Assembly (NCBI GenBank): GCA_003520455.1
Contig: DOUV01000016.1
Location: 1 to 6,946 of the forward strand
Length of the DNA: 6,946 bases
Direction: 5' to 3'
From: Chloroflexota bacterium
GTDB lineage: Bacteria > Chloroflexota > Anaerolineae > Ardenticatenales > Ardenticatenaceae
The translations under genes and the position numbers were made by a program. The notes below the pieces were generated by a model. It was not told the origin of the DNA, searched no databases, and was given only the letters and a program-made list of their open reading frames with translations. Of this stretch, positions 2,968-6,837 are shown piece by piece; positions within the stretch are counted from its first letter, which is position 1, and each line of letters begins with the position of its first letter.

Positions 2968-3072
2968 CGAGGTGGGACCGCCGGTGGTGCGGGTGCGACC
3001 CGACGTCTTCGGCGAGAACCCGAAGGGGGTCCTCGCGTGCCGAGGTGGGACCGCCGGTGGCGCGGGTGCGAC
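2968..3072. repeat. 32-bp direct repeat, 73-bp period, between divergent promoters
   Basis: The 32-bp copies at 2968-2999 and 3041-3072 differ at a single base (T or C at repeat position 21). A further degraded match starting CGAAGGGG precedes each copy (2941 and 3021), so the array looks like one full 73-bp unit plus a partial one. The intervening part holds a perfect 6-bp stem, CTTCGG (3007-3012) with CCGAAG (3020-3025). The array abuts the purB -35 and ends about 40 bp before the lysine -35. It could be a dispersed intergenic repeat family or tandem binding sites; the sequence alone does not decide. Confidence 0.75.
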
Positions 3073-3111
3073 GGACAGGGTGCCCGAATGGGTAGTTTCT
3101 CGCCGCAGGAC

Positions 3112-3140
3112 TTGACAGCATCGCCAAGCGGCGGTATAGT
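3112..3140 (+). promoter_or_regulatory. Near-consensus sigma70-type promoter of the lysine operon
   Basis: A perfect TTGACA (3112-3117) is separated by exactly 17 bp from TATAGT (3135-3140), which matches 5 of 6 of TATAAT. Transcription should start near 3147. Such a strong basal promoter fits control by premature termination downstream. Confidence 0.85.
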
Positions 3141-3175
3141 CCCCGCGATCCTTCGAAATTCGCAGGGAGTTCTTG

Positions 3176-3235
3176 GTGGCAGCATTCGCGCCGAAAACCG
3201 CGCAGGAGAAAAAACCGGACCTTTGGTCTGGCTGA
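3176..3235 (+). CDS. Putative lysine-operon leader peptide
   Basis: A 19-codon ORF starts at GTG with an AGGGAG ribosome binding site at 3164-3169, six bases upstream. It reads MAAFAPKTAQEKKPDLWSG (GTG read as fMet) and stops at TGA 3233-3235. It has three AAA Lys codons in nineteen, two of them adjacent (3209-3214), and no Arg. It lies about 30 nt after the predicted transcription start and 38 nt before the terminator. Its probable job is as a sensor: ribosome speed over the Lys codons sets the downstream RNA fold. The peptide itself need not be functional. An in-frame TTG at 3173 is an alternative start with worse spacing. It is too short for routine gene callers. Confidence 0.7.
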   Translation: MAAFAPKTAQEKKPDLWSG

Positions 3236-3273
3236 TCCTACTTGGGCGTGACTCACCACGAGGAACGCGACAC

Positions 3274-3309
3274 AACCGGCGGCCAGACGCAATCTGGCGC
3301 CGGTTTTTT
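3274..3309 (+). terminator. Intrinsic terminator in the lysine leader (attenuator)
   Basis: The left arm 3274-3287 pairs with 3293-3305 over 13 bp with one bulged G (3281). A five-base loop CGCAA (3288-3292) caps it, and six T follow at 3304-3309. It sits 186 bp before lysW and on the same strand, so it would stop lysine-operon transcripts unless its left arm is sequestered by 3226-3232. Confidence 0.9.
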
Positions 3310-3495
3310 GTTGTGCAGAAGGAGCAGTCAACGCGTAGCGGTCAACGGAAGGGACGACGGATTCACGGGGGCGGCTGCCGCCGGCTGTCGTTCCATCCGT
3401 TCTTCGGTTGTCCGCTGTGCGCGGGGCACATCCGTTGGCCGGCGCGCGCGCGTTAATTTTCTACGAAATTCGCAACAAATACAGGAGGAATTGGC
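3310..3495 (+). promoter_or_regulatory. Structured, gene-free leader between attenuator and lysW
   Basis: I see no convincing gene here. A long stem joins AACGGA (3344-3349) to TCCGTT (3396-3401) and continues through GG/CC (3351-3352 with 3393-3394), one G-U pair and ACGAC/GTCGT (3354-3358 with 3387-3391), with one A-A mismatch. A smaller GGCGG/CCGCC hairpin (3370-3382) lies inside it. A second hairpin, TGTGC/GCACA, is at 3416-3430. None is followed by a U-run, so they are not terminators. They may protect the mRNA or control lysW translation. The strong AGGAGG ribosome binding site of lysW starts at 3483. Confidence 0.55.
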
Positions 3496-3666
3496 ATGCA
3501 GACGGCATCTTGTCCCGAGTGTGAGGCCGAGATCAGCTTCCCGGACGATGTCATGCTCAACGAAATCACCCAGTGCCCGGACTGCGGTGCCGAGCTGGAG
3601 GTCGTGAATCTCGATCCGTTGGAGGTCGAACTGGCACCAGAAGTCGAAGAGGATTGGGGCGAGTAG
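3496..3666 (+). CDS. lysW: LysW amino-group carrier protein
   Basis: This small acidic 56-residue protein carries the amino group of alpha-aminoadipate (and of glutamate in some organisms) during lysine synthesis, shielding it and presenting intermediates to LysX, LysZ, LysY and LysJ. Cys6/Cys9 (CPEC) and Cys27/Cys30 (CPDC) form the zinc-binding knuckles. The middle is rich in Asp and Glu, giving the charged surface its partner enzymes grip. The C-terminus EDWGE is the family hallmark, and the last Glu is the attachment residue. The length is typical. The start is fixed by an AGGAGG site seven bases upstream of the ATG. It is the first structural gene after the attenuator and lies 9 bp before lysX. 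Identification is very secure. Confidence 0.97.
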
Positions 3667-3675
3667 GAGGAAGGC

Positions 3676-4545
3676 ATGCACATCGGTATACTCCTTGGGC
3701 GCGTCCGCGTGGAAGAGAAGCTTCTGATCCAGGAGATCGAGGGGCGTAGCCTGAGCTACGAAGTCATCAACGACAATGAAGTTCAGTTCGACCTGGAGCG
3801 GGCCGGCGCCTGGCAGCGCTTCGACGTGATCCTGGAGCGCTGTGTCAGCCACTCGCGCGCGATGGCCGCCCTGGCCTGCTTCGATGCATACGGCATTCCG
3901 ACGGTCAACACGCGCCAGGTGGGTGAGATTTGCGGTGATAAGCTCCTGACGACGTTGGTGCTGGCGCGAGCCGGAGTGCCCCAGCCGCGCACTCGCACGG
4001 CGTTTACCCATGAAGCGGCAGTCGCCGCCATCGAGGAGTTGGGCTATCCCGTGGTGCTCAAGCCGGCGACGGGCTCGTGGGGGCGCTTGCTGGCGCGCGT
4101 GAACGACCGGGATGCGGCCGAGGCGATTCTGGAGCACAAGGAGACCCTCGGCGGTGTGCAGCACGCGATCTACTACATCCAGGAGTACGTCAACAAGCCG
4201 GGCCGTGACATTCGGGCCTTCGTCGTGGGCGACGAGACGATCTGCGCGATCGAGCGCCGCTCAGCGCACTGGATCACCAACACGGCGCGCGGTGGGCAGG
4301 CAGGCAATTTCCCGGTCACACCCGAGCTGAACGATCTCTGTGTGCGCGCGTCCCGCGCCATCGGTGGCGGTGTGGTCGCCGTTGATGTTTTTGAGAGCGA
4401 CCGTGGACTCCTGGTGAATGAGGTCAACTACACGATGGAGTTTCGCAACTCCATCGCGCCGACCGGGGTCAATATTCCCGGCCGGATTGTCGACTACGTC
4501 GTCCAGGTTGCCCGGGCGCAGCAAAGGACTGCCCTGGCCGCGTAG
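3676..4545 (+). CDS. lysX: LysW-alpha-aminoadipate ligase (ATP-grasp)
   Basis: This 289-residue ATP-grasp ligase joins the amino group of alpha-aminoadipate to the C-terminal Glu of LysW with ATP hydrolysis. The N-terminal domain ends near GDK (87-89). ATP-grasp features follow: [17 protein letters not shown] (127-142) with Lys129 and the GSWGR loop, IQEYV (168-172) as the adenine-side strand, [10 protein letters not shown] (177-186), NTARGGQA (202-209), and the metal ligands Asp237, Glu249 and Asn251 in [12 protein letters not shown]. All core residues are present and the length fits LysX rather than the longer RimK. A GGAGG site precedes the ATG. LysX, ArgX and dual-function enzymes are close relatives, so glutamate use as well cannot be excluded. 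The lysine leader argues for aminoadipate as main substrate. Confidence 0.93.
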
Positions 4546-4639: not shown

Positions 4640-5746
4640 ATGAGAGGTTGTATGAGCATCTTCGAGCAGACAATCAATTTTACCCGCGGTGTCCCTGCGG
4701 ATGAGAGCTTCCCGCTCGAGGAGGTCGCCGAGTGCGCGGCGGCTGTGATCGGGGGCCCCCTCGGGACGCAGGTGATGCAATACGGCAAGAGCTTCGGCTT
4801 CGCCCCGCTGCGCGAGTGGTTGGCCGCGCGCCACAACGTGGCGATCGAGCAGGTAATGCTGGCCAATGGCTCACTCCAATTTGTGGATTTCATGGGCCTG
4901 GCGCTGCTGGAACGCGGCGACACCGTCTTCGTCGAGTCACCGACCTACGACCGGGTGCTGACCCTGCTGCGGCGTCACGGCGCTCGCATCGTCGGCATTC
5001 CGTTGGAGGCCGACGGCCCAGACCTCGAGGCCCTCGAAGTGGCGCTGCGCCACCAGGTGCCCAGGCTCTTCTACATCATCGCCGATTTCCAGAATCCCTC
5101 CGGCGCCACCGCCTCGCCCGCCAAGCGCCGCCGCCTGGCCGAGTTGGCCGAGCGGTACGGATTCTGGCTGGTCGAGGATGCTCCCTACCGGCCACTGCGC
5201 TACCGCGGCGAGCACTTGCCGAGTCTCTTTGACCTGGCACCGGCCCACACGCTCCAGATGTCCTCGTTCACCAAGCAGATCAGCCCAGGCGTTCGTGTCG
5301 GCTATTTGATCGGCGATGCGACGGCGCTGGCGCGGTTGGCCAGAGCCGCCGAGGATACCTATATCACGCCCAACCTGATCGGAGAGGCCACAGTCTACGA
5401 GTTCTGCCGTCGCGGCTGGCTCGATCCCCAACTCGACCGGCTGCGGACGCTCTACGGCCCGCGGTTGGAAGCGATCTGCGCGGCGCTGCGTGAGCGGCTC
5501 CCCGATGCCGAGTGGATCGAGCCCGATGGCGGCTTCTTCCTCTCGGTCACGGTTCCCGTGGGGACGACCAGCGAGGCCCTGCGCGCGCGGGCGGCGGCGC
5601 TCAAGCTCAACCTCAGCGATGGGCGCGGCTTCTTTCCCAACCCGGCGGAGGGGGAGCGCTTCCTGCGCCTGCCCTTCTGCGCGCTCACACCCGACGAGCT
5701 TCGCGAGGCTGTTCGCCGTCTTGCATTCGCAGTGAATCAGTCCTAA
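4640..5746 (+). CDS. lysN: PLP-dependent aminotransferase, LysN-like (2-aminoadipate transaminase)
   Basis: This 368-residue class I/II (fold type I) aminotransferase probably converts 2-oxoadipate to alpha-aminoadipate using glutamate, supplying the substrate for LysX. Visible landmarks are Tyr48 in QYGKSFG, Asn152 in QNPSG, Asp180 and Tyr183 in VEDAPY (cofactor ring contacts), Lys212 in SSFTKQISPGVRVGY (Schiff-base lysine), Arg219 (phosphate) and Arg343 in FLRLPF (substrate carboxylate). The set is complete. The family includes broad-specificity transaminases (LysN, Aro8, MocR-like domains), so the substrate rests on context. An ATG at 4652 with AGAGG four bases upstream is an alternative start; the ATG at 4640 has AGGA six bases upstream. 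It lies between lysX and lysY, which places precursor supply within the carrier-pathway operon. Confidence 0.85.
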   Translation: MRGCMSIFEQTINFTRGVPADESFPLEEVAECAAAVIGGPLGTQVMQYGKSFGFAPLREWLAARHNVAIEQVMLANGSLQFVDFMGLALLERGDTVFVESPTYDRVLTLLRRHGARIVGIPLEADGPDLEALEVALRHQVPRLFYIIADFQNPSGATASPAKRRRLAELAERYGFWLVEDAPYRPLRYRGEHLPSLFDLAPAHTLQMSSFTKQISPGVRVGYLIGDATALARLARAAEDTYITPNLIGEATVYEFCRRGWLDPQLDRLRTLYGPRLEAICAALRERLPDAEWIEPDGGFFLSVTVPVGTTSEALRARAAALKLNLSDGRGFFPNPAEGERFLRLPFCALTPDELREAVRRLAFAVNQS

Positions 5747-5808
5747 GTGAACGGATCGGCGTAGACTTGAATCCGAAACTCAGGAGTTACGACTCCCCCG
5801 AGGGAATC

Positions 5809-6837
5809 ATGCGGGTTTCGATTGTCGGTGCCTCCGGGTACGTTGGGGGCGAGGTGTTGCGGCTCTTGCTGGGCCATCCTCACCTGGAGGTCGCGCAGGT
5901 GACCAGCGAGCGCCTGGCCGGGCGCTTCGTGCACTCGACTCACCCCAACCTGCGCGGGGCGACTCAGCTCAAGTTCACCAGCGCCGGCGAGTTGGCGTCG
6001 TGCGACCTGCTCTTCCTGTGCCTGCCGCACGGTGAGGCCGCCGGGCGGATCAAGCAATTCGCCGGGCTGGGGGAGCGCGTGGTGGACTGCTCGGCCGACT
6101 TTCGCCTGCTCGACCCGATGGCGCACCAGCGCTGGTATCCGGAGACGCCGGTTGCCGCCGAGTGGCGGCAGCAGTTTGTCTACGGGCTTCCTGAGGTCAG
6201 CCGCGAGGCATTGCGGGACGCACGCTTTATCAGTGGCGTGGGCTGCAACGCGACCGTGACGACGCTGGGACTCTTGCCATTGGCGCGCGCGGGACTGATC
6301 GAGCGCGTCGTGAGCGAGGTCAAGGTCGGGTCGAGCGAGAGCGGGGCCAGCAGCAGTGAGGCCTCGCATCACCCCGAGCGCAGCGGCGCGGTGCGCAGCT
6401 TTGCGCCAACCGGCCACCGCCACCAGGCCGAGATCGTGCAGGCCACCGGCCTGGACGAGGGGCAGCTCTTCTTTTCGGTCACCGCTATCGAGATGGTCCG
6501 TGGGGCGCTCGCGACCAGCCACGTCTTTCTCCGCCGGCCGCTGGCCGACAAAGATTTGTGGAAGCTCTACCGCGAGGCCTACGGCCGCGAGCCTTTCGTC
6601 CGGCTGGTCAAAGATCGCTCGAGCCTCTACCGCTACCCCGAGCCCAAGATTCTGGCCGGCACAAACTTCGCCGACGTCGGGTGGGAGCTCGACGAGCACG
6701 GCGGCCGCGTCGTCGTGATCAGTGCGATTGACAACTTGATGAAGGGCGCCGCGGGGAGCGCGCTGCAGGCTGCAAACCTGGCCTGCGGTTTTGACGAGAC
6801 GGCGGGGTTGGAGTTCCTGGGGTTGCATCCGATTTAG
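5809..6837 (+). CDS. lysY: LysW-gamma-L-alpha-aminoadipyl-6-phosphate reductase
   Basis: This 342-residue ArgC-family NADPH-dependent reductase converts LysW-aminoadipyl phosphate to the semialdehyde, the step after LysZ. GASGYVGGE (7-15) is the Rossmann dinucleotide loop. Cys146 in SGVGCNATVT is the catalytic thiol that attacks the acyl phosphate. The HRHQ segment at 203-206 holds the conserved active-site His. SAIDNLMKGAAGSALQ (305-320) is the C-terminal conserved motif. The length matches ArgC/LysY. The frame is open much further upstream, into the aminotransferase gene, but the protein homology begins at the ATG at 5809, which has AGGG four bases before it. By sequence alone ArgC and LysY are hard to separate; adjacency to lysW, lysX and lysZ decides for LysY. 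Confidence 0.92.
   Translation: MRVSIVGASGYVGGEVLRLLLGHPHLEVAQVTSERLAGRFVHSTHPNLRGATQLKFTSAGELASCDLLFLCLPHGEAAGRIKQFAGLGERVVDCSADFRLLDPMAHQRWYPETPVAAEWRQQFVYGLPEVSREALRDARFISGVGCNATVTTLGLLPLARAGLIERVVSEVKVGSSESGASSSEASHHPERSGAVRSFAPTGHRHQAEIVQATGLDEGQLFFSVTAIEMVRGALATSHVFLRRPLADKDLWKLYREAYGREPFVRLVKDRSSLYRYPEPKILAGTNFADVGWELDEHGGRVVVISAIDNLMKGAAGSALQAANLACGFDETAGLEFLGLHPI

Follow-up and report, generated by a model that had tools for sequence, protein, structure and literature searches.

The lysine operon and its leader

The window analysed here, a stretch of 6,946 nucleotides from a contig of the Ardenticatenaceae (Chloroflexota, Anaerolineae), carries on its forward strand lysW and lysX, followed by genes for a PLP-dependent aminotransferase and for a reductase of the ArgC/LysY type (Table 1). 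The best 25 of the 60 NCBIfam matches of the aminotransferase all fall under their cut-offs. This gene separates lysX from lysY in the window, whereas lysY directly follows lysX in two related loci, L002 and L004. The start of the reductase gene is approximate, the listed reading frame opening at 5512. In L002 and L004, the two relatives in which the operon was annotated as far as homocitrate synthase, lysX is followed by argC/lysY, a LysW-aminoadipate kinase, a LysJ-like transaminase (scoring under the cut-offs of the LysJ models themselves), a LysW-lysine hydrolase and homocitrate synthase. The association of homocitrate synthase with LysW-pathway genes in these operons indicates that the end product is lysine, made via alpha-aminoadipate. 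Elsewhere in the window, the reverse strand encodes at 261-1406 a protein that is probably secreted and combines a LysM-like domain with a protease domain of the trypsin-like (HtrA) type; its NCBIfam matches are below cut-off.

Table 1. Features of the window and the basis of their assignment.
Feature	Position	Strand	Basis
Sigma-70-type promoter, TTGACA-17-TATAGT	3112..3140	+	consensus scan, 11/12
Shine-Dalgarno-like GGGAG, 6 nt 5' of GTG start	3165..3169	+	sequence
19-codon leader ORF, MAAFAPKTAQEKKPDLWSG*, GTG 3176 to TGA 3235	3176..3235	+	translation; relatives have short Lys-rich ORFs in this position
Tandem Lys codons AAA-AAA, predicted stall site	3209..3214	+	sequence; Lys is the top enriched amino acid in such ORFs
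Segment 1, CCGGACC, can pair with 3225-3231	3215..3221	+	fold; backed in a subset of relatives only
Segment 2, GTCTGGCTG, antiterminator 5' half	3226..3234	+	9-bp complement to 3280-3288; prefix fold
Intrinsic terminator hairpin (3:4) and T tail	3274..3309	+	-21.3 kcal/mol
Segment 3, CGGCCAGAC, part of terminator left arm	3280..3288	+	pairing with segment 2
lysW, amino-group carrier protein	3496..3666	+	TIGR01206, 68.5 bits, cut-off 53.2
lysX, LysW-aminoadipate ligase	3676..4545	+	TIGR02144, 357.7 bits, cut-off 275.6
PLP aminotransferase, perhaps LysN-like (2-aminoadipate aminotransferase)	4640..5746	+	role suggested by place
argC/lysY reductase, start approximate	5809..6837	+	TIGR01850, 345.7 bits, from residue 100 of ORF 5512-6837

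Attenuators of the trp/his type combine a leader reading frame in which codons for the final product abound, a competing antiterminator and an intrinsic terminator. A preliminary description of this DNA had proposed such a device upstream of lysW, built from a near-consensus promoter, a 19-codon reading frame with a well-spaced ribosome binding site, a tandem AAA-AAA and a terminator with a six-T tail, and each of these elements is indeed present. The -35 (TTGACA, 3112-3117) and -10 (TATAGT, 3135-3140) hexamers are separated by a spacer of 17 nt, and the whole window contains two promoter-like sites against 0.5 expected. The leader frame, which could alternatively start at an in-frame TTG (3173), has its lysine codons at 3194, 3209 and 3212, AAA in every case, and together with GGGAG it offers the putative start signal that a trp/his-type attenuator needs. 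The terminator lies between this frame and lysW, as such an attenuator requires; its hairpin proper spans 3274-3305 with a single bulge, and the T run occupies 3304-3309. Taken with the comparative results below, this anatomy leads us to conclude that the window very probably contains a ribosome-mediated attenuator of the trp/his type sensing charged tRNA-Lys.

Lysine-rich leaders in related genomes

A LysX search of genome contigs gave at least 80 loci; among the matches listed, the closest four belong to the Ardenticatenia or Ardenticatenaceae (76-78% identity). Of 298 genomes drawn across the class, 258 had a LysX match at E<=0.001, many of them weak, and this draw added further loci, among them a relative at 80% (L089). 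From the matches listed in this draw we took 30 loci and 80 more as 1401-nt regions, the rest being weaker, already included or short upstream. The deduplicated set comprises 170 distinct lysX loci including the window. In 150 of them lysW is adjacent, and L159 gave no match. An attenuator was called when a reading frame of 8-50 codons with at least three Lys in seven codons ended 10-60 nt before a terminator, and the control consisted of shuffled sequences with terminator positions kept (mean of five rounds). The finder returned 68 attenuators from 42 loci, of which 54 are non-redundant, the window included. An earlier version had missed the bulged terminator of the window itself, and L062 showed two units in an earlier scan and one in a later scan that reached only 700 nt, so that attenuator and tandem counts are best read as approximate lower bounds. 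Three loci called in a looser scan (L024, L114 and L121) are likely false calls and are absent from the 68 instances.

Lysine stands out clearly among the amino acids of these leaders. At least three Lys in seven codons were found in 42 of the 170 loci, compared with a shuffled mean of 2.2, and at least four in 34 loci compared with 0.6. The next largest excess, that of valine, was 11 versus 2.8 at the lower threshold and 1 versus 0.6 at the higher one. The amino acid enriched in the leaders is thus the one that the operon makes. Where lysW is adjacent and the upstream sequence reaches 500 nt or more, 41 of 146 loci have the attenuator, including the window. The short Lys-containing frame that the preliminary description proposed to look for by aligning relatives was recovered by this search instead, and all five closest genomes carry Lys-rich leader frames with terminators 5' of lysW. 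Relatedness among the loci keeps these counts from being independent; on a LysW+LysX tree of the 146 loci, attenuator presence corresponds to 6 changes (36.1 for the shuffled mean). Of the 42 attenuator loci, 31 have a promoter with at least 9 of 12 consensus bases no more than 110 nt 5' of their first leader, against 2.7 of 42 after shuffling.

The composition of the leaders also bears on whether the Lys run might stall ribosomes through the basic character of the nascent chain or through slippage on A runs, in which case the device would sense the general state of the ribosome. Lysine clusters are dense enough for this, adjacent Lys pairs occurring in 48 of the 54 leaders, and codons 12-13 of the window's leader (AAA-AAA) form an A6 run. 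However, most clusters contain interruptions and are encoded by AAG (183 AAG versus 23 AAA in the 54 leaders), and a basic chain would equally allow arginine, which lies below its shuffled value at three or more codons (16 versus 27.4; 7 versus 6.4 at four or more). Since the product of the operon is lysine as well, we regard this explanation as improbable and favour the sensing of Lys-tRNA.

Outside the class, 30 loci from 200 genomes of Gemmatimonadota (29 with lysW) contained a leader with at least three Lys only in L225, which is the same locus as L037; L227 has a reading frame with two Lys before a terminator and was left out of the count. A search for other Lys-attenuated genes with a terminator-sequence pattern matched two of the 298 genomes, the pattern being too tight to inform.

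As a separate observation, leader Lys codons prefer AAG beyond the usage of nearby genes (AAG:AAA 108:30 versus 497:514 in 18 loci, window excluded). The direction is towards AAG in 15 of 19 loci and opposite in the window, L002, L020 and L089. From codon counts, this preference would fit selective tRNA charging or the avoidance of slippage.

Proposed antiterminator pairing and ribosome spacing

In the window, segment 2 can pair with segment 3 in the left arm of the terminator to form a helix of 9 bp including one G-U. It lengthens the 7-bp match noted previously (3226-3232 with 3282-3288), which is exact. The 9-mer arm occurs once on the forward strand of the window and the 7-mer twice. In prefix folds, the 2:3 helix forms in RNA ending at 3292 when everything up to 3225 is omitted, and the terminator forms when RNA up to 3247 is omitted. 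A fold starting at 3215 favours 2:3 over 1:2. At equilibrium the terminator (-35.0) is preferred to the 2:3 structure (-29.2), which implies that antitermination must be kinetic. Taken alone, the 2:3 duplex of the window stands out only moderately (8 of 100 shuffles do as well, and its segment-2 region pairs better with 19 of 67 terminator arms from other loci than with its own arm), and it is the relatives that carry the statistical weight.

Terminators (3:4) were chosen by the finder and 2:3 pairing was not a selection criterion; the pairing statistics concern 2:3 and 1:2. Across the 54 non-redundant attenuators, segment 2 pairs better with its own terminator arm than with arms swapped in from other loci, both by helix score (8.9 versus 7.0, Wilcoxon p = 6.6e-8) and by duplex energy (-21.3 versus -16.5 kcal/mol, p = 1.2e-8). 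The compensatory changes in 2:3 that had been suggested as a check are thus borne out, and pairing is kept though the bases change, from GTCTGGCTG/CGGCCAGAC in the window to GTGGTCCGGT/GCCGGACCAC in L001, GGTTATCTGG/CCAGATAACC in L018, GTGTCTGG/CCAGACAC in L165 and GCGTCTGG/CCAGACGC in L183. The signal is not uniform: 2:3 ranks in the best tenth in only 28 of the 54, and 8 of them have no good helix (rank fraction 0.60 or worse). The 1:2 stem is a different matter. The competing stem described earlier (3215-3220 with 3226-3231) can form in the window, where it grows to 7 bp (3215-3221 with 3225-3231), and holds in a subset of relatives (p<=0.05 in 8 of 54), but not as a general feature. A cruder test, in which at least five arm bases pair upstream in masked prefixes, was positive in 54 of 54 attenuators against 42.1 in shuffles and discriminates poorly.

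Segment 2 follows the last Lys codon at 11 nt in the window and at a median of 15.5 nt in the 54 attenuators (quartiles 12.25 and 17), a spacing that would keep segment 2 accessible when the A site of a ribosome holds this codon. The geometry previously drawn for a stalled ribosome therefore suits both the window and the family.

These elements suggest the following course of events. RNA polymerase would start near 3147 and a ribosome would translate the 19-codon leader. With ample Lys-tRNA, the ribosome would reach the stop codon and cover segment 2, allowing the terminator to form and transcription to stop before lysW. When Lys-tRNA is scarce, the ribosome would stall with its A site at Lys12 or Lys13 and its front edge just before 3226; segment 2 could then pair with segment 3 before segment 4 is made, the terminator would not form and the lysine operon would be transcribed. 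Leader translation, stalling and the transcriptional response are predictions drawn from these sequences, and they would provide the alpha-aminoadipate lysine pathway of Chloroflexota with a concrete, testable control mechanism. The proposal of a leader-peptide attenuator for the lysW operon is supported by its anatomy, lysine specificity, own-arm pairing and spacing.

The same properties weigh against a constitutive or condition-independent early terminator accompanied by a short frame of no regulatory role. The 105 of 146 sampled lysW loci with enough upstream sequence in which no attenuator was detected would agree with such an element, but neither the specificity for lysine, nor the spacing, nor the preference for the own arm would be expected of it, and we hold this reading to be unlikely in comparison with attenuation. 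Another RNA device (a lysine riboswitch, a T-box or a protein-bound leader) is more improbable still: the leader region 3147-3309 folds well (z = -3.6; 1 of 200 shuffles equal or better), but no Rfam lysine riboswitch or T-box was found in the window, nor any at E <= 0.1 in 16 related loci. In the Rfam scan of the window no family exceeded its gathering score, four weak chance matches lying below theirs. The sole Rfam match in the 16 related loci is an unrelated FMN riboswitch near the lysW locus of L086 (660-826, reverse strand).

A candidate long-range stem in the window, 3169-3179 with about 3255-3268, would cover the start of an untranslated leader. It was rejected as a family trait: strong in the window, in the first unit of L001 and in that of L089, it does not extend across the family (own versus swapped p = 0.053; in 10 of 68 attenuators no more than 5 of 100 shuffles equalled it).

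The lysine genes of Thermus thermophilus are reportedly also preceded by a leader-peptide attenuator. This system is reported to couple, likewise, a leader peptide and attenuation to alpha-aminoadipate lysine genes, in a different phylum, the comparison being one of reported architecture. It is not known to have a tandem arrangement. With the trp/his-type systems, the device described here has in common the leader frame with product codons, the antiterminator and the intrinsic terminator; it differs in that it concerns lysine and Chloroflexota, in that the 1:2 stem is not general and in that relatives often have two units in series. Our literature searches, which covered only a minor part of the subscription literature, listed nothing relevant on attenuators for lysine or in Chloroflexi.

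Tandem units in relatives and repeats around the promoter

The most striking feature, the occurrence of tandem units, belongs to the relatives rather than to the window, and the wider family is the more interesting result. Two units in series, both Lys-rich, were found by the finder in 26 of the 42 attenuator loci; in the 146-locus subset defined above by adjacent lysW and upstream length, at least one unit is present in 41 and at least two in 26. All five closest relatives (L001-L004 and L089) are tandem, whereas the window has one unit. The gap between the first terminator and the second leader frame has a median of 44 nt (16-163 nt); it contains no promoter-like pair in 14 of the 26 cases and a best match of 5-8 of 12 in the other 12. 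With the promoter mostly 5' of the first leader and a gap lacking a good promoter, both units are likely, on this sequence evidence, to lie on one transcript.

The region between terminator and lysW in the window (3310-3495) was considered as a possible second attenuator and rejected: no Lys-rich frame precedes a terminator, the fold is modest (z = -2.0, 5 of 200 shuffles as good) and there is no second forward-strand promoter. It may hold a decayed remnant of a second unit. The window groups with L001-L004 and L089 with 99% SH-aLRT support, its branching inside the group being without resolution in a tree based on 147 columns, in which 61 of 143 inner branches are open. The order to which L089 belongs comprises seven genomes in our collection, namely the five tandem relatives, G158 (the contig of L012, with one unit) and G174 (without a real LysX match). 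The simplest reading is that the second unit was probably lost in the lineage of the window. More broadly, we think there is a good chance that many Anaerolineae lysW operons carry two ribosome-mediated attenuators for the same amino acid in series on one transcript, and that the pair is old, with one member lost in the lineage of the window. If this is true, read-through probabilities would multiply, which would double the logarithmic gain and give a wider range of response to Lys-tRNA charging. Relatives with two, one or no detected copies would form a natural system in which to ask whether a second attenuator for the same signal adds range, sharpness or insurance.

Tandem attenuators for the same signal did not appear in our literature searches, which covered only a minor part of the subscription literature. 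Salmonella mgtCBR is described with two leader ORFs in one leader mRNA, mgtM responding to ATP and mgtP to proline, and with stem-loops unlike intrinsic terminators (PMC3641672). Two leader frames per leader mRNA are common to mgtCBR and the tandem relatives; in the latter, unlike in mgtCBR, both leaders have Lys codons and both are followed by intrinsic terminators. The window, with the one unit detected by the finder, does not share the tandem arrangement.

Several repeated sequences surround the lysW promoter. The sequence GCCCGAATGGGTAGTTT (3082-3098), 13 nt 5' of the -35 hexamer, differs by one base from the pattern ACCCNNNNGGGTRRTTT, which occurs exactly once per genome in the five closest genomes, always just 5' of the lysW promoter. 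The exact pattern matches 14 of 254 fetched loci, all from these five genomes and no others, and the reversed pattern, used as a control, has two occurrences across them. From its position, it is perhaps a candidate operator. Further upstream of the promoter, a 32-nt direct repeat (CGAGGTGGGACCGCCGGTGG...) with one mismatch lies at 2968-2999 and 3041-3072, the copies being 73 nt apart. Finally, the 11-mer CGAAATTCGCA is found twice, near the transcription start (3154-3164) and just 5' of the lysW ribosome binding site (3464-3474).
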